This document shows, in pieces, positions 16,371 through 37,161 of a stretch of DNA of 39,122 nucleotides; the first letter of the stretch is position 1, and each line of letters starts with the position of its first letter. The notes under the pieces are model-generated. The model had not been told where the DNA came from. It ran no database searches and saw only the letters and a program-made list of their open reading frames with translations. The DNA lies in assembly GCA_949743265.1 (NCBI GenBank), contig CATJSX010000063.1, positions 1 through 39,122 of the forward strand. Reading direction: 5' to 3'. This stretch comes from an uncultured Peptococcaceae bacterium. Its GTDB lineage: Bacteria; Bacillota; Peptococcia; Peptococcales; Peptococcaceae. The position numbers were made by a program, and so were the translations under genes.

Positions 16371-17621
16371 TTATTCCCAAATGCCTGCTTCTTTGAGGCT
16401 GTGATAGTCATTTCCACCTATAATAATATGGTCCAAAATGGGTATTCCTATGTCATCAAAAATTTTTTTCAATCGTTTGGTCATAATAATATCGTCATTG
16501 CTGGCTTCTAAATAGCCGCTAGGATGATTGTGCGCCAAGATGATTGCGTGAGCACTTTTTTTGAACACAATACGCAAAATTTCTTTGGGATAAATGCTTA
16601 TGATATTAGCAGCACCCATAGCCACCATTTCAATGCCTAATAATTCGTGTTGATTATTCAACAAACAAATTTTAAGTACTTCTTGTTCTAAACGGCCCAT
16701 GTCTTGTATCAATAGGTGAGCGATATCACCTATGCTATTGATAACTGCGTTTTCGCCTTTTGAATTATTGTGGGCACGACGACCCAATTCTAAAGCAGCT
16801 AAAATTCGTACGCTTTTGCGTTGACCAATCCCTTCAAAAGCGGCTAGTTCCTCAAGAGTTAACTTGCTTAGACCACTGAGACCATGACTTTCTGTTAATA
16901 TCAACTGTGAAATTTGCTCAACGCTGTATTTTTTTGTGCCGTTGACCAGCAATAATGATAGTAATTCATGATCGGAAAAATCACGAATATTATCACCAGT
17001 TGCGAGCCGTTTCAATAACAGATTATAGATTTCCTCATTTTTGATCATACGATAAACATTTACCCCCATCAGTTTAAGCCCTTCGGCAACTTTATTTAAA
17101 GGCAAACCAACAATATTGAAATAGCATCCTGTGATACTTTCTACCAATAGCGCGCCTTTGCCTTGGATGCCATAAGCGCCGGCTTTATCTAATGATTCGC
17201 CGGTAGCTAGGTAGCTTTCTATATCTTCTTCAGTCAATGTTCTGAATTGCACCTGACTGACAACAATGTCCTGCCAAATACGTCCGTTGCTGCTGTTTAC
17301 TAATGCTACTGCTGTCATGACTAGATGCGTATGACCAGAAAGTCTGCGCAACATTTGACGCGCTTCTGATAAATCGTGGGGCTTGCCCAAAATTTCTCCT
17401 TTATCAACGACGACGGTATCAGCGCCTAATACGATTCCTTCGTCAAAATGTTGTGCGACATTCTGTGCTTTGGCTAACGCTAAAGATAATAACTGCTCTT
17501 TAATAGGTAGTTGAGGGTTTAGTGTTTCGTTAATAGAACTTGGAAAAACAACAAACGAAACGCCTATCTGCGTTAAAAGTTCTGCTCGTCGCGGAGACGC
17601 TGAAGCTAAAATAATAGTCAT
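16371..17621 (-). CDS. Fused Maf nucleotide pyrophosphatase - RadC (JAMM) protein
   Basis: One uninterrupted 416-residue frame carries two complete proteins. Residues 1-190 are Maf/YhdE, a house-cleaning NTP pyrophosphatase acting on dTTP/UTP and modified nucleotides: SASPRR 7-12, GADTVV 67-72, and AYGIQGKGALLVESITGCYFNIVGLP. Residues 192-416 are RadC: an N-terminal domain, a helix-hairpin-helix (AFEGIGQRKSVRILAALELG), then the JAMM/MPN+ motif H364NHPSG with S374 and D376, the metal-binding set of a hydrolase-like fold. The role of RadC is unsettled. Maf and radC are normally adjacent separate genes in this position; here there is no stop, overlap or restart between them. An AGGAG site precedes the ATG. 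The M192 codon lies 14 bases after a GGGGG and could be a weak internal start. Confidence 0.93.
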   Translation of the reverse strand: MTIILASASPRRAELLTQIGVSFVVFPSSINETLNPQLPIKEQLLSLALAKAQNVAQHFDEGIVLGADTVVVDKGEILGKPHDLSEARQMLRRLSGHTHLVMTAVALVNSSNGRIWQDIVVSQVQFRTLTEEDIESYLATGESLDKAGAYGIQGKGALLVESITGCYFNIVGLPLNKVAEGLKLMGVNVYRMIKNEEIYNLLLKRLATGDNIRDFSDHELLSLLLVNGTKKYSVEQISQLILTESHGLSGLSKLTLEELAAFEGIGQRKSVRILAALELGRRAHNNSKGENAVINSIGDIAHLLIQDMGRLEQEVLKICLLNNQHELLGIEMVAMGAANIISIYPKEILRIVFKKSAHAIILAHNHPSGYLEASNDDIIMTKRLKKIFDDIGIPILDHIIIGGNDYHSLKEAGIWE

Positions 17622-19113: not shown

Positions 19114-19845
19114 TTATTTGATAATCATCTTGCGACGGATTTTTTCTAAAGCATTTTTTTCTAAACGAGACACTTGCATTTGTGAAACGCCTAAAATATC
19201 AGCAATTTTGCTTTGCGTTAAATCTTCAAAATAGCGATAGTAAATGATTTTACGCTGATTATCGTCTAAAAGACGCATAGCCTCTTTTAGGTCGCGACGC
19301 ATTTCGATATTTTCTAGGTTGCTGTCTTCAGCACCCATTAGATTCAATAAAGAGGCAGTATTTTCACTTTCATTTTGTTCAGATAGGGAGGCGGTCTGTG
19401 TCGCTCTTTTAGCTTCTAGCGCTTCTTCTACTTGCTTTTGGTCAATGCCCAAAATATCAGCGATTTGTTCAGTAGTAGGATTCTCACCATGTTTTTGATA
19501 ATATTCGCTTTCTGCTTTATTGATATAAGTACTCAATTCTCGAAACTTGCGGGGAATAGTGACTCGCCAAGTACTGTCGCGATAATAATTCATGATTTTG
19601 CCCGAAACTGTGCGATAAGCAAAGGTTTTGAAACGAATGCCTTTCGTAGGATCGAATCGCTCCAATGCGCCAATAATGGCAATACGAGCGACTTGAAGCA
19701 AATCTTCTTTTTCCCATGCCAAATAACATTGGGATTGGCACCAATATTTGATCATCGGTTCCATGGCGATGATAATTTGATTAAATTTTTCTTCTGTTGG
19801 ATTTTCTTTATAAGCCTTGACCATTTCTTCCAAGTCTTGTTTCAT
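19114..19845 (-). CDS. RNA polymerase sigma factor of the SigB/SigF/SigG family
   Basis: 243 residues from ATG 19845 (GAGGG eight bases ahead); a TTG at 19884 would add 13 residues but has no good site. Region 2 contains EKEDLLQVARIAIIGALERFDPTKGIRFKTFAYRTV. A segment like SigB (RDSTWRVTIPRKFREL) follows, then region 3 (PTTEQIADILGIDQKQVEEAL) and region 4 with the helix-turn-helix LTQSKIADILGVSQMQVSRLEKNALEKIRR. There is no region 1.1, so it is an alternative group 3 sigma. The gene directly upstream encodes an RsbW/SpoIIAB-type kinase that would hold it inactive. By sequence alone I cannot say whether it is a stress (SigB) or forespore (SigF/G) factor. Confidence 0.9.
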   Translation of the reverse strand: MKQDLEEMVKAYKENPTEEKFNQIIIAMEPMIKYWCQSQCYLAWEKEDLLQVARIAIIGALERFDPTKGIRFKTFAYRTVSGKIMNYYRDSTWRVTIPRKFRELSTYINKAESEYYQKHGENPTTEQIADILGIDQKQVEEALEAKRATQTASLSEQNESENTASLLNLMGAEDSNLENIEMRRDLKEAMRLLDDNQRKIIYYRYFEDLTQSKIADILGVSQMQVSRLEKNALEKIRRKMIIK

Positions 19846-19907
19846 TCTCACGCCCTCACTTTCGGGCAAATTTGAATCGCTCAAATGGCGCCCTGCAAGA
19901 TCTTTCT

Positions 19908-20315
19908 TTACCAGCGAATTTTTACATGGATTTTGTTTCCTTTTTTATTATACCAGATTTCATCAGAAATTTGTCCAATTAAATATAATCCTTTGCCGTT
20001 TTCGTCTAAAAGTTTTTCTTCAGTAAGCTCATCTGTCGCTGTGCACAATTTTTTTATGCCGCCGCCTTCGTCTTCCACACAAAAACAAAAAGTTTTTTCT
20101 TCTAAGCGCCACTTGATGCAGACTGTTTTAGCTACGTCGTTGTAATTGCCGTGGATAAACCCATTATGCACAGCTTCCATTAAACACAGTCGAATATCCA
20201 TTGCTTTAGCTTGCGGCACATTTTTTGCCTTAAGCGCAGATTGCAGGCATACCACTACGGCATCAGCTTCATCTAATTGATGAAGTTTAAACATGGTTTC
20301 CATCATTTTCGGCAT
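19908..20315 (-). CDS. Anti-sigma factor serine kinase, RsbW/SpoIIAB type
   Basis: A 135-residue HATPase-fold protein. The N box is CLMEAVHNGFIHGN (E47, N51), the G1 box is VEDEGGGI, and the G2 box is ENGKGLYLIG. There is no H box, as expected for the stand-alone GHKL anti-sigma kinases that bind a sigma factor and phosphorylate an anti-anti-sigma (RsbV/SpoIIAA). It lies 62 bases upstream of the sigma gene on the same strand, so the sigma factor is its obvious partner. No RsbV/SpoIIAA homologue is in the window. The start is uncertain: GGG touches the ATG at 20315, and an ATG at 20306 has better spacing. Confidence 0.85.
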   Translation of the reverse strand: MPKMMETMFKLHQLDEADAVVVCLQSALKAKNVPQAKAMDIRLCLMEAVHNGFIHGNYNDVAKTVCIKWRLEEKTFCFCVEDEGGGIKKLCTATDELTEEKLLDENGKGLYLIGQISDEIWYNKKGNKIHVKIRW

Positions 20316-20347: not shown

Positions 20348-20734
20348 TTATACGTCAGTTATTTCACTGATGCGTTTTTCTAAAAGCTGCACAATTAACA
20401 CATCAGCACCTAAATGTTTGGTCTCTTTAAAGTGAATTTGAGGATAAAGAGCGGAAAGTTGATCTACGCGATTTGGTATATCTCGATGCAAATGGTTGCC
20501 CACCGTTAAAAACAGCGGAACGATAATGATTTCTTTCACTTGCTGTTGAACCAAAATATTCGCAGCTTTTTCCAAGTTTGGTTCGGCAAATTCGGCAAAA
20601 GCCGCTTGTACCAGACAATTTTTTTGGCGTTGCGCAAGCATTTGGGCAATAGTTTCTACTTCTTTATTAGCTTCCAAGCGTCTACTGCCGTGACCTAAAA
20701 CGATAATGCCTATTGGGCGTTTGCGTTCAGACAT
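20348..20734 (-). CDS. cbiX: Short CbiX-family (sirohydrochlorin cobaltochelatase-like) protein
   Basis: A 128-residue protein of the small CbiX/SirB class. It begins RPIGIIVLGHGSRRLEANKEV with the metal-binding His of GHGS (H15), contains AFAEFAEPNLEKAANILVQQ, and has a second conserved His in VGNHLHRDIP. Small CbiX proteins form dimers that insert Co2+ (or Ni2+/Fe2+) into sirohydrochlorin. No other corrin or siroheme gene is nearby, so the metal and pathway are not fixed. ATG 20734 has AGGA eight bases before and overlaps the end of the PspC gene by eight bases; translational coupling is likely. Confidence 0.8.
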   Translation of the reverse strand: MSERKRPIGIIVLGHGSRRLEANKEVETIAQMLAQRQKNCLVQAAFAEFAEPNLEKAANILVQQQVKEIIIVPLFLTVGNHLHRDIPNRVDQLSALYPQIHFKETKHLGADVLIVQLLEKRISEITDV

Positions 20735-20936
20735 CAATATAATCCTTATCTTCGGGAATAATATAACCTAACAACATGTAAATAATGATTGCTGGCAGCG
20801 TGCTGATTGGTGGGAATAAACATAACAGTACCCAAAATATACGCACAAAAGTTGGATCAATGCCAAAAAAATCACCTAATCCAGCGCATACGCCCATCAG
20901 TTTTCGACCGTTTTTTGGTCTTCTTAATTTTTTCAT
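20727..20936 (-). CDS. Small PspC-domain membrane protein
   Basis: 69 residues made of a single PspC domain: RPKNGRKLMGVCAGLGDFFGIDPTFVRIFWVLL, then a hydrophobic helix (PAIIIYMLLGYIIP). Such proteins sit in the cytoplasmic membrane and in E. coli sense envelope stress with PspB. Many Firmicutes carry stand-alone copies, as here. An AAAGGGG site lies before the ATG. It is the first gene of a run continuing with cbiX, the anti-sigma kinase and the sigma factor. Confidence 0.88.
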   Translation of the reverse strand: MKKLRRPKNGRKLMGVCAGLGDFFGIDPTFVRIFWVLLCLFPPISTLPAIIIYMLLGYIIPEDKDYIDV

Positions 20937-21151: not shown

Positions 21152-21754
21152 CTATAATTGCTGGTATTTGAGAAAGCCTTTATCCAGTAAATATAGATCC
21201 TGTTTCATATCCCGCCAAAATTGGCGAACACTTCGCCAATTTTGGCGCAAATAAATTTCTTGATCATTATTAAGTCGCTTGCCTTTATCCAGTGTTTCTT
21301 TCATTGATAACAATTCTTCGCTTTCGCTGATAACAGTATCCATAAATTGATATGTTTCTGCCACTTCATCAGATTGCAGCACTTCTTGCCATTCCATTTC
21401 AATTAGTTTAAAAAAAAGCCAATAGGTTGTAAAGCAACGGCATAGTCCCAATGCTTCTGCAGCTTTAAAAAAAGTCTGCTGATCGTTATAGCGATCAATA
21501 ATGGCAATATTATCCAGTGCTGTTTGTTTAGCTGTTGCTAATGCTGAGGCTGAAACAGCATTATGACGAATACATTGGTTAAACAACGCCAAAATTTGTT
21601 GGCTTTGCAGTTTATCTGTCTGCGCATCGGACAGTTCTTCTGCGGCAAAACTGACAGCGACTGCTGTTGTCAGCCAAAAATAGCCTTCTGAATGAAATAA
21701 ACTTTGTGCTTTGCTGCCTTCAGAAAAGGCTAATAAACCGCCGCGTTTCTGCAT
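21152..21754 (-). CDS. Hypothetical protein, 200 residues, probable sigma-factor target
   Basis: Not recognised. From ATG 21754 (AAGGTGGG seven bases ahead; a longer in-frame start at 21805 lacks a site) the protein is soluble and largely helical, with MQKRGGLLAFSEGSKAQSLFHSEG at the N-terminus and a basic/aromatic C-terminus (RQFWRDMKQDLYLL). Two cysteines (GLCRC) sit near residue 105. No membrane segment is convincing. It is transcribed alone from a SigB-like promoter at 21832-21857 and lies just upstream of the pspC-to-sigma run on the same strand. Function unknown; the promoter suggests a stress or developmental role. Confidence 0.65.
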   Translation of the reverse strand: MQKRGGLLAFSEGSKAQSLFHSEGYFWLTTAVAVSFAAEELSDAQTDKLQSQQILALFNQCIRHNAVSASALATAKQTALDNIAIIDRYNDQQTFFKAAEALGLCRCFTTYWLFFKLIEMEWQEVLQSDEVAETYQFMDTVISESEELLSMKETLDKGKRLNNDQEIYLRQNWRSVRQFWRDMKQDLYLLDKGFLKYQQL

Positions 21755-21831
21755 AGAAATCCCACCTTGCATGATTAACTGGCTGATGAAAAAATTCATC
21801 ATCACGGAAAATCTGTTATTATTTTTTATAT

Positions 21832-21857
21832 TTACCCCGAAAATAAAAATTTTAATC
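21832..21857 (-). promoter_or_regulatory. SigB-like promoter for the 200-residue hypothetical
   Basis: Minus strand: GATTAA (21857-21852), 14-base spacer, GGGTAA (21837-21832) extended as GGGTAAATATAAA. The SigB consensus is GTTTAA-N12-15-GGGTAT. No comparable sigma-A promoter is visible here. It shares 11 of 13 bases from the GGGTA onward with the promoter at 22760-22785. Confidence 0.55.
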
Positions 21858-21959
21858 AGTCGGCCAATAGCTGTGTCTTAAATTTATCCCGTTATTTTTT
21901 GCCAATGAAATTCGGTGCAAGGTGATAGTTTGGTGATGACGATTTGGAGATTAACTGCA

Positions 21960-22003
21960 AATAACCCAACGCGCTTAAAGTATTCAAAGCGTGTTGGGTT
22001 ATT
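21960..22003 (-). terminator. Terminator after the 222-residue hypothetical gene
   Basis: AATAACCCAACgCGCTT pairs with AAGCGtGTTGGGTTATT around a 10-base loop. It is rather symmetric, with A and T flanks. Confidence 0.8.
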
Positions 22004-22044
22004 TATGTTCTTTTGTTATTCAAGAAGACCAAATAAAAAATTTA

Positions 22045-22713
22045 TTATTTGCAACTGATCATGTTGCCTTTTTTTATAATTGTTAAATTTTTGCCGCCGA
22101 CAGTATTGACAGCGATCAGTTGAAGATCTGATCGTTTGGTCATGAGCGGCGTTAAATCCACTGGTGCTTGTAATAAGCGACCATCTAAAAGAACAGCGAA
22201 CCCGTGTGGTAGTGTGAGAATTTCCGACAGCCTTTGGGACAATTCATCTGTTTTGAGTTGATAATAATGAATATGGCGAAAAGAATCTGCGACAATAGTA
22301 GCATCAGGTAGTGACGTGCGGCAAAAATGAAGCATGCTAAAGGCAGTATCAATAGGTTGCGTCGTTTCTTCATCACCAATAGTCAATTCGCCAAAGCTGC
22401 GGCGCATTACCATTTGGTTATTACTATTGTACAATTCTTCTTCATCTGTAATGGTTGCACCGTGTTCATCGGCTGTGTTTTTGGCATACCATAAATAGTC
22501 GTGATGAGCTGCATGAAAACCGATGCGACAAATAACGTCTAAAAAATAAGGTTCTGTATGTCCTGCGGCAAAAGCACTGGCGCCGAGAAGACCGCGGAAT
22601 AGAAAATCAAGAGCGTCATTTTCGCCGGATAAAGAGCAAACTTTATCTAGAACCGTTTTGCGCAACGTTAAGCCGCTTTTTTTGTGTCGTAATTCTATCC
22701 AATCAATTTGCAT
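22045..22713 (-). CDS. Hypothetical protein, 222 residues, probable sigma-factor target
   Basis: Not recognised. The protein is soluble and mixed alpha/beta, starting MQIDWIELRHKKSGLTLRKT, with His-rich segments in the middle (FHAAHHDYLW, FRHIHYY) and a beta-rich end (GFAVLLDGRLLQAPVDL ... IAVNTVGGKNLTIIKKG). The histidines do not form a metal motif I can name. The ribosome-binding site GGAAGGA is eight bases before the ATG. It has its own SigB-like promoter (22760-22785) and terminator, so it is monocistronic. It shares no visible similarity with the neighbouring 200-residue protein. Confidence 0.65.
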   Translation of the reverse strand: MQIDWIELRHKKSGLTLRKTVLDKVCSLSGENDALDFLFRGLLGASAFAAGHTEPYFLDVICRIGFHAAHHDYLWYAKNTADEHGATITDEEELYNSNNQMVMRRSFGELTIGDEETTQPIDTAFSMLHFCRTSLPDATIVADSFRHIHYYQLKTDELSQRLSEILTLPHGFAVLLDGRLLQAPVDLTPLMTKRSDLQLIAVNTVGGKNLTIIKKGNMISCK

Positions 22714-22759
22714 AATAATCCTTCCTATTCTTTATTAAAGTAGAGTTATCATGTTATAT

Positions 22760-22785
22760 ATACCCTGCGTTAGAAATGGCTAATC
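22760..22785 (-). promoter_or_regulatory. SigB-like promoter for the 222-residue hypothetical
   Basis: Minus strand: GATTAG (22785-22780), 14-base spacer, GGGTAT (22765-22760) extended as GGGTATATATAAC, about 47 bases ahead of the ATG. Spacer length and both boxes match the promoter at 21832-21857. Confidence 0.6.
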
Positions 22786-22994: not shown

Positions 22995-23144
22995 ATGAAT
23001 CAAACCATTGAGCAAAATCTTCCACTGGCTGCTATTTTTATTGAGCGTCAGCCCTATGGAACTTTATATAATTTACCGGAAGCTTTGAGAAACGGCACCG
23101 TTTTTGCTAATCTCAATAAACCATATATTAAGAAAATCAGATAA
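22995..23144 (+). CDS. cotJA: Spore coat-associated protein CotJA
   Basis: 49 residues; short even for CotJA, but the conserved core is complete: PLAAIFIERQPYGTLYNLPE, then ALRNGTVFANLNKPY, matching the family pattern PLAxxYVPxQxxxxxYxPxEALxxGTxFPxLxxPY. AAAGGAGG lies 10 bases before ATG 22995. CotJA is a spore-coat component placed by mother-cell gene expression in Bacillus. It is first of three genes in the standard order, 12 bases before cotJB. Confidence 0.88.
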   Translation: MNQTIEQNLPLAAIFIERQPYGTLYNLPEALRNGTVFANLNKPYIKKIR

Positions 23145-23156
23145 GGAGTATGCATT

Positions 23157-23426
23157 ATGAAAAAAACTAATCTCTGTACTACTAGAGAGGCTATGCTTTT
23201 AGAATTGCAACAACTTAGCTTTGTGTTGGTCGATCTTAATCTTTATTTAGACAATAATCCTAATGATCAGCAGGCCATCAATGATTTTAACTGCTTCTTC
23301 CAAAATTATTGGGAAAAGAAAAGCGCCTACGAAATGCAGTTTGGTCCACTAGCCAATTTTGGTTATACCCCTGCTGCCTATCCGTGGAATTGGATCAATG
23401 ACCCATGGCCTTGGGAAAAACAATGA
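23157..23426 (+). CDS. cotJB: Spore coat protein CotJB
   Basis: 89 residues. The conserved CotJB core is LQQLSFVLVDLNLYLDNNPNDQQAINDFNCFFQNY, ending in the usual aromatic/proline tail FGYTPAAYPWNWINDPWPWE. It is a small coat component of unknown fold, always encoded between cotJA and cotJC. AAGGAG sits nine bases ahead of the ATG. Confidence 0.93.
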   Translation: MKKTNLCTTREAMLLELQQLSFVLVDLNLYLDNNPNDQQAINDFNCFFQNYWEKKSAYEMQFGPLANFGYTPAAYPWNWINDPWPWEKQ

Positions 23427-23440
23427 GGAGGAATTAACTA

Positions 23441-24013
23441 ATGTGGATCTATGAAAAAAAATTAGAATTTCCAGTTAATATAAGATCAAAAGATTTGAAA
23501 ATGGCACAATGTCTTATGGCTCAATATGGAGGTCCAAGCGGTGAATTATCTGCTGGTTTGCAATATTTAACTCAACGCTATACTATGCCTACTGGAGCAA
23601 CTAAAGCGTTATTAACAGATATAGGCACAGAAGAACTAGCGCATGTGGAAATATTAGCTACTATGGTTTATCAGATTATGTCCAATGCCACTATTGAAGA
23701 AATTAAAGCTGCCGGAATGGATAAATATTATGTTTTACATGGCAGAGGCGTTTATTATACCGATCCGAACGGTTACAACTGGACTGCAGACTATATTTCA
23801 TCAAAAGACGACCCTATCGTTAATTTGACGCGCAACCTTGCTGCTGAAGAAGAAGCGCGTATTACCTACGAATGGCTAATCAATTTAACTAACGAACCAG
23901 ATATTATTGCACCATTGACTTTTCTGCGTCAGCGAGAGATTGTTCACTATCAACGTTTTGGTGAAGCGCTAATGGATGTACGTGATTATTACAACTGCAA
24001 ACATTATTTCTAA
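23441..24013 (+). CDS. cotJC: Spore coat protein CotJC (manganese catalase-like)
   Basis: 190 residues of the ferritin-like Mn-catalase family. It starts MWIYEKKLEFPVNIRSKDLK. The carboxylate/histidine metal-ligand helices are TDIGTEELAHVEILATMVYQI, AEEEARITYEWLINL and LRQREIVHYQRFGEALMDV. It would disproportionate hydrogen peroxide or protect the coat; catalytic activity of CotJC itself is supported only in a few species. It is last in the operon, followed by a terminator. Confidence 0.95.
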   Translation: MWIYEKKLEFPVNIRSKDLKMAQCLMAQYGGPSGELSAGLQYLTQRYTMPTGATKALLTDIGTEELAHVEILATMVYQIMSNATIEEIKAAGMDKYYVLHGRGVYYTDPNGYNWTADYISSKDDPIVNLTRNLAAEEEARITYEWLINLTNEPDIIAPLTFLRQREIVHYQRFGEALMDVRDYYNCKHYF

Positions 24014-34256: not shown

Positions 34257-35103
34257 TAGGACAGCTCTCTTCCTGTATACTGAATGAATATATCTTCTAA
34301 AGTGGGCTCCTTAGAATGGATGCTGATGATCTCATCATAGATAAAAGGGATACCTGTTTTCAGCTCATGGATCTCGATGGTGGTTGAATGACGTTGTTCT
34401 TGAATCATATAGTCGATGGTAACTTGATGATTGCTGTTTTTCTCTTTCAGACGCTTGGGTGTGTCCAAAGCAACAAGGTTTCCATCAGAGATAAAGGCTA
34501 CTCTATCGCACAGCAAATCAGCGTCCATCATGTTGTGAGTAGTGACAAAAACTGTCGTCCCCTTTTTTGCTCCTGTTCAATGATTTTTCGGAACAATACT
34601 GCGCCGGAGGGATCCAGCCCGCTGGTAGGCTCATCCAGAAACAACAGGCGGGGATTGCTAATCAGAGCTCGAGCCATACTTACTCGCTGGCGCATACCCT
34701 TGGAGTAAGAAGATACTGGCTTTTTTAGAAAGTCTGGCTTGAATTCCAATGTTTCCAGCAGTTCTTCTACATTCCGCCGTTGCTTTTTAGGATAAAACGA
34801 AGAAAAATAGTTTAGATTGTCAATAGCGCTTAAATTGCTATACAGATAGGGAAACTCAAATAAGACCCCAACCTTTTGAAAAAATTCTTGTTCATTAGTG
34901 GTAGAAATATCCTGCCCAAACAGAGAGACTTTTCCTTTGTAGCCTTTCAAAATTCCGATGAGTATCTTTTGAGTTGTGGACTTTCCAGAACTATTCGGAT
35001 CCCAAAAGCCAAAAATTTCCCCATCTTCCACGGAAAAATTCAGACCATGGAGAGTCTGACTATCCTTGCCATAAAAGAACGTCAAGTTTGCAACCTCAAT
35101 CAT
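34256..35103 (-). pseudogene. ABC transporter ATP-binding protein, frameshifted
   Basis: The first frame (35103 to 34528) has a Walker A region GFWDPNSSGKSTTQK, the signature SYSKGMRQRVSMARAL and Walker B LLFLDEPTSGLDP; it ends RQFLSLLTT*. The H-loop, TTHNMMDADLLCDRVAF, lies in another frame (34531 to 34256). Adding one base in the A6G4 stretch at 34559-34568 joins them: the sequence then reads KRGTTVFVTTHNMMDAD as usual for this family. The Walker A also lacks the first glycine (D in place of G) and has N-S-S where N-G-A is normal. Two independent defects support loss of function. The ATG overlaps the small ORF before it as ATGA. Confidence 0.85.
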
Positions 35104-35246
35104 TCATTGTCACCCCATTTTTCACACTGATTTTTTTCTTGTCGGCACTTGTTCCACCATTTTATAAATTTGATCTTGAAAGGAACGGCGATAATCAGCA
35201 CCACCATAATTACTAGCCACCAGTACCATTGTAAGCCTAAGAACAT
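35100..35246 (-). CDS. Small membrane protein, 48 residues, upstream of the ABC genes
   Basis: An intact ORF: MFLGLQWYWWLVIMVVLIIA, one hydrophobic helix (about 2-22) with tryptophans at its start, then a charged tail with two cysteines (KCRQEKNQCEKWGDNE). Stop and ATPase ATG overlap by four bases (ATGA), so the small ORF was translationally coupled to the ATPase. AAGGAGG is eight bases before its ATG but is part of a hairpin (35247-35275). It resembles the small single-helix proteins encoded beside peptide-type ABC exporters; I do not recognise the family. Unlike most of its neighbours it is not frameshifted. Confidence 0.7.
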   Translation of the reverse strand: MFLGLQWYWWLVIMVVLIIAVPFKIKFIKWWNKCRQEKNQCEKWGDNE

Positions 35247-35275
35247 AAAAAAACCTCCTTATTTTTGATAAGGAG
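35247..35275 (-). promoter_or_regulatory. Hairpin covering the ribosome-binding site, with U7 tail, ahead of the small membrane protein
   Basis: Minus strand: CTCCTTAT (35275-35268), loop CAAAA, ATAAGGAG (35262-35255), G, then seven T, then the ATG at 35246. The AAGGAGG ribosome-binding site is the right arm of the stem. It has the form of both an intrinsic terminator and a ribosome-binding-site lock. Confidence 0.7.
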
Positions 35276-35308
35276 AGTTTAGATGACTACTGTGAAATCC
35301 ACGTGAAA

Positions 35309-36322
35309 TTATTCTGCAGTAGGGATGGAGAACCAGAATTGTACGCCATCTGTCAAATTTTTCACACCATAAAGCATATTTTGCATAGAGAGGATTTGTG
35401 CCACGATGGATAGTCCTAAACCAGATCCGCTGTATGTTCCATCGTTAGCGCGATAGAATTTTGTCCAGATCCTTATCTGGAATAAGCTTGCCTTGATTAA
35501 AAATGGCAAAATGCAGCGCTTTATCCGTCTTAATTAATTCTAGTCGCAAGAGGCCATTGGGCTGCACATTCTTTTTGGCATTGATAATCAGATTGCTCAA
35601 AACCTGTTCCATACGCCACCGATCTGTTCGCACAAAAATCTTTTGTTCTGGCAGATCATATTGCAATTCAAAATTTGTGTCGGGAGCATCGAGCAAAAGC
35701 CGACCAGCCACGGTTTCCACTAACTCCACAAAGTCAAATTGGGTAATGTTTAACGGTACAGCCCTGCTCTCCAGAGCCGACAAGTCCAGAAGCGTTACGA
35801 TCAAGTGATTCATATGCTCTACTTCAGTAACAATGACATGAGCATATTTCTGTTTTTTTGCTTCATCTGTTTCTTCCTGCAAGCTCTCAGCATAAGCTCG
35901 AATGATGCCTAGTGGAGTTTTCATTTCATGGGATAAGTTATCCACCAGTTCCTTACGTTCATTCAACGAATTTTCCAAGCAAGTAAGAGCTTGTTGAAGA
36001 TTATGCGCCATTGTGTTCAGACTGATAGATAGCTCTCCAAATTCGTCTGTTGAAGTAAGATTACAGGGAGCCGAAAAATCCAAATTTGCCATGCGCTTCG
36101 CAGAATCATTTAACTTTGAAATCGGCTTTGTGATAAAACGAGCCATAAAAAAATCAATCCCCCAAATTAGCAGTAAAAGAAGCCCCAACCAAATCAGGAA
36201 AGAAACATCTTTGCTGATGGGCAGGCGAGTAGACAGGCTGTAAGAAAAAATCAGTATAATTCCTGCCAGTTTAGATAGCATCAAAATCTTTTTCCGAACG
36301 GTGCGAAAAAAATTTCTTTCAT
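35309..36322 (-). pseudogene. Sensor histidine kinase, two frame-breaking lesions
   Basis: The main frame gives one membrane helix (FLIWLGLLLLLIWGIDFF), HAMP (FITKPISKLNDSAKRMA), a HisKA domain with NLSHEMKTPLGI, and the HATPase N box SNLIINAKKNV. The ATG at 36322 overlaps the regulator stop (ATGA) but runs out of frame at once; an extra base in the T7 tract opposite 36306-36312 restores MKEIFFRTVRKKILMLSKL, the expected start. At the end the frame stops at DKDLDKILSR, while another frame continues WTKFYRANDGTYSGSGLGLSIV. The family reads DKIWTKFYR here, so an 11-base segment between two copies of TCTGGACAAAAT seems to have been lost (near 35453-35472). The kinase is therefore inactive, or at best truncated. 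Confidence 0.85.
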
Positions 36323-36986
36323 ACTGATACCTCGAATTTATAGCCAGAGCGAATCAATGTGACGATGTGCCTACCCTCGTACCCTAGCTTTTGTCGCAAA
36401 GTTTTGATGTGGGTGTCTACAGTACGGGTCGTGCCTTCAAAGTCATAGCCCCAAACACGGTTTAAGAGTTGCTCTCGGCTGAAAACTTGTCCCGGATTTG
36501 CCATCAAAAAAGAGAGTAATTCATATTCTTTGTGGGTTAATGTGATCTCCTGCCCATCAAGATAAACTTTGTGCATGCTAGATTGGAGCATGATTTTTCC
36601 TGCATAGATCATTCCAGCAGACACAGCGGAAGAACGACGCAGGAGAGCATTCACTTTTGCCAATAGGATCTTGAGGCTGAATGGCTTTGTCATATAATCG
36701 TCTGCGCCATAGTCATAGCCTTTCAATTTATCTTCCTCTGTACTTTTGGCGGTCAGCATAATAATTGGCATGTACTTATCTCGCGTGTTATCTTACAGAC
36801 AGAAAAACCGTCCAAATGAGGCATCATCACGTCCACAATCATCAAATCCATGGGATTGTTTTTTAACATGATAAGGGCTTCTAGACTATCGTCAGCAGTG
36901 AAACAGATGTGTCCGTCTTTTCGTATATAGTCTGCAATGATGTCCTGCATAGCCTTTTCGTCTTCAACAATCAGAATGTTTGCCAT
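36319..36986 (-). pseudogene. OmpR/PhoB-family response regulator, frameshifted
   Basis: From ATG 36986 (AGGAGG five bases ahead) the receiver domain begins MANILIVEDEKAMQDIIADY and includes the phosphoacceptor D52 in MIVDVMMP. It continues to CKITREISTCQLLC and then stops. The rest, MPIIMLTAKSTEEDKLKGYDYGADDYMTKPF and the complete winged-helix domain, is in another frame from 36771 on. One missing base near 36766-36774 accounts for it. The output domain keeps the DNA-recognition helix (TRTVDTHIKTLRQKLGYEG). It starts the cassette, 29 bases after a sigma-A promoter. Confidence 0.88.
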
Positions 36987-37014
36987 AGTACCTCCTATTT
37001 CTGCCATTACCCTG

Positions 37015-37043
37015 ATTATATTCTGTACATGGCAAAAAGACAA
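37015..37043 (-). promoter_or_regulatory. Sigma-A promoter of the broken cassette
   Basis: Minus strand: TTGTCT (37043-37038), 17-base spacer, TATAAT (37020-37015), 29 bases ahead of the regulator start. Confidence 0.7.
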
Positions 37044-37161
37044 GAGATTGCATAGGCAAATTGGCATAATACATATGAAATATTGCTGTCAGTAGTTCTA
37101 TTGCGTCATGCTGCTGTTTTATTCTAATCAATGAACAAACGATAGTAAAAAGTTTCTAAGC

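Follow-up and report, generated by a model that had tools for sequence, protein, structure and literature searches.

The window, a 39,122-nucleotide stretch of DNA from an uncultured Peptococcaceae bacterium, carries two adjacent genes without annotation that are each preceded by a promoter-like sequence of the same design, which raises the question of which sigma factor reads these sequences and which physiological programme the two genes serve. Gene A (21152–21754 on the minus strand including the stop codon, 21155–21754 coding) encodes a protein of 200 amino acids when counted from its ATG, and gene B (22045–22713, minus strand) one of 222 amino acids. Neither protein had a significant match in PDB, Pfam or NCBIfam, and hhalign returned a probability of 0.3% for a relationship between them, in agreement with the original prediction that they are unrelated in sequence. 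A pattern search of the window located both sites exactly on the minus strand, GATTAA-N14-GGGTAAATATAAA at 21825–21857 before gene A and GATTAG-N14-GGGTATATATAAC at 22753–22785 before gene B, at distances of 77 and 46 nt from the respective start codons. The predicted promoters proper span 21832–21857 (−35 GATTAA, N14, −10 GGGTAA, with an AT-rich extension to 21825) and 22760–22785 (−35 GATTAG, N14, −10 GGGTAT, with an extension to 22753). Recomputation reproduced the claimed near-identity, with equal N14 spacing and 11 of 13 bases around the −10 box in common, and neither site pattern occurred in 100 dinucleotide shuffles of the window. As definition of a SigB-type promoter we used the consensus of B. 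subtilis, GTTTAA-N15(+/-2)-GGGTAT (PMC9847131), with few deviations; the gene A site departs from it by one base in each box and the gene B site by two bases in the −35 box and none in the −10 box, both at N14. Among all positions of the window, a position weight matrix (PWM) built from the sites of related genomes ranked the gene B site first and the gene A site second, with scores of 22.7 and 21.0 compared to 10.3 for the next position and 20.1 for the best of 30 Markov windows, although these scores are partly circular and not fully independent because the training sites were partly picked with the pattern of the original prediction. Genes A and B thus carry matching switches, which very probably respond to a stress sigma factor encoded close by.

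A sigma factor gene and an anti-sigma factor gene are indeed present on the same strand as the sites and about 2–3 kb away. The sigma gene (19114–19884, minus strand, probable start at the ATG at 19845) encodes a factor of the SigB/F/G type, for which TIGR02980 (SigB/SigF/SigG subfamily) was the best family with 201 bits, under the curated cut-off of 234. The scores for the SigB equivalog TIGR02941 (151 bits, cut-off 315), SigF (TIGR02885, 133 bits, cut-off 321) and SigG (TIGR02850, 93–111 bits, cut-off 457) were likewise below the curated thresholds, and the factor, which probably works like SigB, is not classed here as a SigB ortholog. Its best match in PDB was chain 8x6g_H (E 9.7e-35), which we take to be SigB of S. 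aureus, followed by 1l0o_C, presumably SigF of the SpoIIAB complex. Orthologs with 54–70% identity were found in 14 other genomes of the order (15 including the query genome), the best matches in the other orders searched were 27–35% identical, and the titles of matching public records name Peptococcaceae and Clostridia MAGs, several of them from animal gut.

The adjoining gene (19908–20315, minus strand; PF13581, HATPase_c_2) has orthologs beside the sigma gene in relatives, and alignment of its product with SpoIIAB showed that the Glu and Asn of the N-box and the glycine boxes are kept (conserved E47, N51, D82, G84 and G86). A GHKL ATPase domain, conserved boxes and a gene that adjoins the sigma gene characterize it as an anti-sigma kinase of the RsbW/SpoIIAB type. 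In G005, the match to the anti-sigma ortholog (L101, C3:14755-15132) contains an in-frame TGA, which is either a sequencing error or a real defect. Genes for a CbiX-type chelatase (20348–20737, minus strand; PF01903) and a PspC-domain membrane protein (20727–20936, minus strand; PF04024, 3.7e-20) are also conserved in the locus, and the order gene A-PspC-CbiX-anti-sigma-sigma is kept in many of the sigma-bearing genomes. No GGGTAW promoter of the SigB type was found before the PspC, CbiX or sigma genes in the relatives checked, and autoregulation of the sigma operon was rejected on this ground. Elsewhere in the window, Maf and RadC (UPF0758) domains are fused in a single protein of 416 amino acids (16371–17621, minus strand), and the region 34528–37067 (minus strand) contains a short ABC transporter ATPase, a short histidine kinase and a response regulator whose coding sequence is divided between two overlapping frames, representing broken genes or assembly errors.

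The genome scan that had been proposed to check the motif upheld its expected position upstream of genes and failed to show an excess by count. GATTAR-N14-GGGTAW has three exact matches in the 3.04-Mb query genome compared to five for the reversed pattern, and 53 compared to 79 when one mismatch is allowed. The exact copies, all three of them intergenic, lie 42, 46 and 77 nt upstream of an SD-preceded start; the third, a GATTAG site, precedes a gene for an LPG_synthase_C-domain protein with a GNAT gene behind it. By comparison, the 50 one-mismatch sites are mostly located inside open reading frames. The rate of promoter-like placement at random positions was 3.65%, but this control is unmatched for base composition, so that binomial values derived from it overstate significance; a fairer control is provided by the one-mismatch sites, which lead to the same conclusion. 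With the positional classes (intergenic, promoter-like) defined by simple ORF rules and not by curated gene models, 26 of 70 exact sites were promoter-like in sigma-positive genomes versus none of six in the pooled sigma-negative genomes G015 and G018. Since the motif is not enriched by count, we draw the evidence for its function from position and conservation.

Fifteen other genomes of the order encode a homolog of gene A, which is present in 14 of the 15 sigma-bearing genomes. Its upstream regions were gathered by gene homology, independently of the motif search, and 13 of 15 genomes have a GGGTAW box 26–77 nt upstream of the start, the exceptions being AGGTAT in G004 and GGAGTATAAT in G007. 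At N14 (or N13), the corresponding −35 element reads GATTAA in the query genome, GGTTAG or GCTTAA in family f2 and TTTTAA or TTTTTA in family f3. Homologs of gene B were found in seven other genomes, all of the same family, at loci apart from the sigma locus. In G011, GATTAG-N14-GGGTAT stands before each of the two copies of gene B, and in G006 and G008 gene B is preceded by GTTTAA-N14-GGTTAT; the motif is weak in G002 and absent upstream of gene B in G005, G009 and G012. The two copies in G011 (L120 and L121, on C190 and C215) are similar, have the same promoter and lie on short contigs, which may reflect a duplication or mixed strains. Divergent from gene B, the window contains a cotJABC spore-coat operon (22995–24013, plus strand) that has no high-scoring SigB-type site.

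Beyond genes A and B, the motif recurs at genes for oxygen detoxification. Most sigma-positive members of the family have it upstream of reverse rubrerythrin. The reverse rubrerythrin gene of the query genome is preceded at 65 nt by the exact SigB consensus of B. subtilis, GTTTAA-N14-GGGTAT, and GTTTA(A/G)-N14-GGGTAT precedes this gene in G004, G007, G008, G010 and G011, with near-variants at N15 in G009 and N13 in G005. A matching site in G006 lies 114 nt before the contig end, and in G002 the motif stands before a triple-rubredoxin gene just upstream of reverse rubrerythrin; the protein encoded in between (L230) has three rubredoxin-like repeats. The motif further precedes rubrerythrin in G002, G007 and G011, flavodiiron protein genes in G002 and G009, a peroxiredoxin (AhpC/TSA) gene in G014 and a desulfoferrodoxin gene in G019, as well as PRC-barrel and ferredoxin genes in relatives and, in G003, a gene identified by eye as uvrB. 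In the sigma-negative genomes G001, G015 and G018, reverse rubrerythrin is present without the motif. In the query genome, GTTTAG-N14-GGGTAA also precedes an ORF of 46 amino acids (L161:1572-1715 in G000 C55) that by eye resembles the start of an aldo/keto reductase and for which Pfam finds nothing; it is possibly a decayed regulon gene. The shared motif before oxygen-detoxifying enzymes points to an oxygen-defence programme, and SigB of C. difficile controls reverse rubrerythrin and flavodiiron genes (PMC11481553). Membership of genes A and B in the regulon of the neighbouring sigma factor, as originally predicted, is thus supported by the GGGTAW box of gene A and its location beside the sigma gene, by the gene B promoter that is kept in four genomes, and by the motif at oxygen-detoxification genes, which is present in sigma-positive relatives and absent in three sigma-negative ones. 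We consider it highly likely that the two window sites serve as promoters for the SigB-type factor encoded at 19114–19884, which would then transcribe from both directly.

The gene A promoter of genus g3 bears on the alternative that both sites are housekeeping sigma-A promoters with an extended −10 element similar to GGGTATAAT and that their likeness to SigB promoters is superficial. The −35 element of gene A is TTGCCC in this genus and forms, together with TATAAT, also a good sigma-A promoter (TTGCCC-N17-TATAAT) that is in register with GGGTATAAT both in g3 and in G004; in g3, the promoter may have a dual use by sigma-A besides a SigB-type factor. Extended −10 and SigB promoters are moreover reported to be difficult to distinguish in C. 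difficile (PMC7438776). Outside g3, however, the match to TATAAT decays while GGGTAW persists, and in the window no sigma-70-like pair with at least 9/12 matches overlaps either site on the minus strand, the best readings near both sites having 3–4 mismatches. The −35 elements of gene B and reverse rubrerythrin are, in addition, of the GTTTAA/GATTAG form, and in the sigma-negative genomes reverse rubrerythrin stands without the motif. We regard housekeeping promoters as an improbable explanation.

Reading of both sites by the forespore factors SigF or SigG, with genes A and B as sporulation genes, is still less probable. SigF, SigG and SigB recognise related promoters, the query genome encodes canonical forms of both forespore factors, SigF on contig C193 after SpoIIAA and SpoIIAB and SigG on contig C91, and cotJABC is located nearby. 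However, cotJABC is divergent and without a high-scoring site, and the motif stands before oxygen-defence genes and not before spore genes. In addition, G003 (98% complete) lacks SigF and SigG and yet keeps the ortholog of the window sigma factor, gene A and its GGGTAT box, and since the sigma gene is kept there in the absence of both factors, it is not a sporulation factor in G003. We rejected the sporulation reading on account of the gene content of G003 and of the kind of genes that carry the motif. A chance likeness of two sites in AT-rich DNA, compatible with a genome-wide count not above the reversed control, is scarcely credible in view of the promoter position of every exact copy, the conservation upstream of orthologs across the order and the rank of the two sites as the top two PWM positions.

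Against the assignment to the window sigma factor, the motif is kept before gene A in G013 and G016 of family f2 (L112, L113, L173 and L174; 93% and 86% complete), and in G016 also before a ferredoxin gene, while no sigma or anti-sigma ortholog was detectable in these two genomes. A second SigB-like sigma factor was considered for the f2 genomes and rejected, the sole full-length candidates being RpoD and FliA in a chemotaxis operon. Two explanations are conceivable, a sigma gene that both assemblies lack or recognition of the motif by a different factor in these genomes. Similarly, G010 (79% complete) keeps the motif before reverse rubrerythrin and has no sigma match, and the sigma-positive G014 has no motif before reverse rubrerythrin. 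Also against the assignment stand the genome-wide count, the three genomes without the motif at gene B, the sigma-A reading of the gene A promoter in g3 and the lack of a matching promoter upstream of the sigma operon. Tests for co-occurrence yielded p values of 0.011 and 0.052, which is weak, with few sigma-negative genomes.

Regulation by the window sigma factor is compatible with the further gene content of the genomes. In all four sigma-positive genomes examined (G000, which is the query genome, G002, G003 and G006), a free-standing STAS protein beyond any SpoIIAA is encoded next to a SpoIIE-type phosphatase, unlinked to the sigma gene. STAS-phosphatase pairs with the PP2C/SpoIIE-type enzyme were found in G000, G003 and G006, and in G002 an ORF for a receiver-phosphatase lies beside a STAS match. 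In G002, G003 and G006, the phosphatase includes a receiver domain, the domains in G002 being read from similarity to G006, and in G000 its gene is cut by the contig end. For the pair in G003, there is no SigF to serve. A complete partner-switching cascade with genes A and B as targets is therefore plausible, in which sigma factor, anti-sigma factor, STAS protein and phosphatase would act together in analogy to SigB systems. In unstressed cells, the RsbW-like anti-sigma factor (19908–20315) would hold the sigma factor and phosphorylate the STAS anti-anti-sigma factor. Stress, most likely by oxygen or a changed redox state, would activate the receiver-SpoIIE-type phosphatase that is encoded elsewhere together with the STAS protein (C165 in the query genome), and the dephosphorylated STAS protein would capture the anti-sigma factor and thereby free the sigma factor. 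Free sigma factor would direct RNA polymerase to G(A/T)TTA(A/G)-N14-GGGTA(A/T), with reverse rubrerythrin, genes A and B and the operon of the LPG_synthase_C-domain and GNAT genes as predicted targets in the query genome, and rubrerythrin, flavodiiron protein, desulfoferrodoxin and peroxiredoxin genes in relatives. What we observed are the motif, its position and conservation, the synteny and the presence of the components; that the window sigma factor binds the sites, the oxygen or redox signal, the working of the switch and the roles of genes A and B are what we infer.

The proposed system resembles that of C. difficile (RsbV-RsbW-SigB with the phosphatase RsbZ) in the promoter type, which is WGWTT-N13-17-(G/T)GGTWA in C. 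difficile (PMC7494833), in its oxygen-defence targets, in the RsbW-like anti-sigma factor and in the combination of a STAS protein with a PP2C-type phosphatase. In contrast to C. difficile, the locus that the sigma and anti-sigma genes share with gene A, PspC and CbiX contains no STAS gene, the phosphatase has a receiver domain and is paired with the STAS gene elsewhere, and no counterpart of genes A and B was found. With the general stress response of B. subtilis, it has in common the GTTTAA-N14-GGGTAT promoter and parts of the RsbV, RsbW and phosphatase type, whereas the score of the sigma factor against the SigB model (151 bits versus a cut-off of 315), the split gene arrangement and the lack of a detectable SigB-type promoter before the sigma operon differ. 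RsbY of B. cereus is a receiver-PP2C phosphatase activated by the hybrid kinase RsbK, and the fusion of a receiver domain to a SpoIIE/PP2C phosphatase beside a STAS protein is similar here, but the genes for both proteins are unlinked to that for the sigma factor. The anti-sigma factor also resembles SpoIIAB of the sporulation SigF set (44.7 bits), whereas the canonical SpoIIAA/SpoIIAB/SigF set is separate in the query genome and the window sigma factor reaches 133 bits against the SigF cut-off of 321. The system is set apart from the known SigB responses by its divergent sigma factor, by genes that are split over separate loci, by the neighbours conserved in the sigma locus and by genes A and B.

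Structure models gave little indication of what genes A and B do. The AlphaFold model of gene A (pLDDT 84.8) is confident and shows an all-alpha protein with seven helices; the best Foldseek hit had a non-significant E of 0.38, and the best VIA-align result, to ferritins (Z 6.0, rmsd 9.7 over 133 residues), is no better than a common helical arrangement. The single-sequence model of gene B reached a pLDDT of 37.7 and is useless for deducing function from the fold. Because gene A is retained next to the sigma gene throughout the order and has a promoter of the regulon type, it could be more than a target and belong to the switch as a dedicated component, acting for example as a helical sensor or as a modulator with feedback on the anti-sigma or sigma factor; the sigma factor would then define a separate oxygen-stress subfamily of the order that is distinct from SigB. 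We put this forward tentatively and consider it rather unlikely as a whole.

A sigma factor that curated models leave unnamed and two protein families without annotation gain from the analysis a probable regulator and a probable physiological context, namely the defence against oxygen of an anaerobic lineage found in animal guts and sediments. The promoter model is testable and finds regulon members in uncultured genomes. The oxygen response governed by SigB, known from C. difficile, would thereby extend to a distantly related clostridial order in which the genes are arranged differently.
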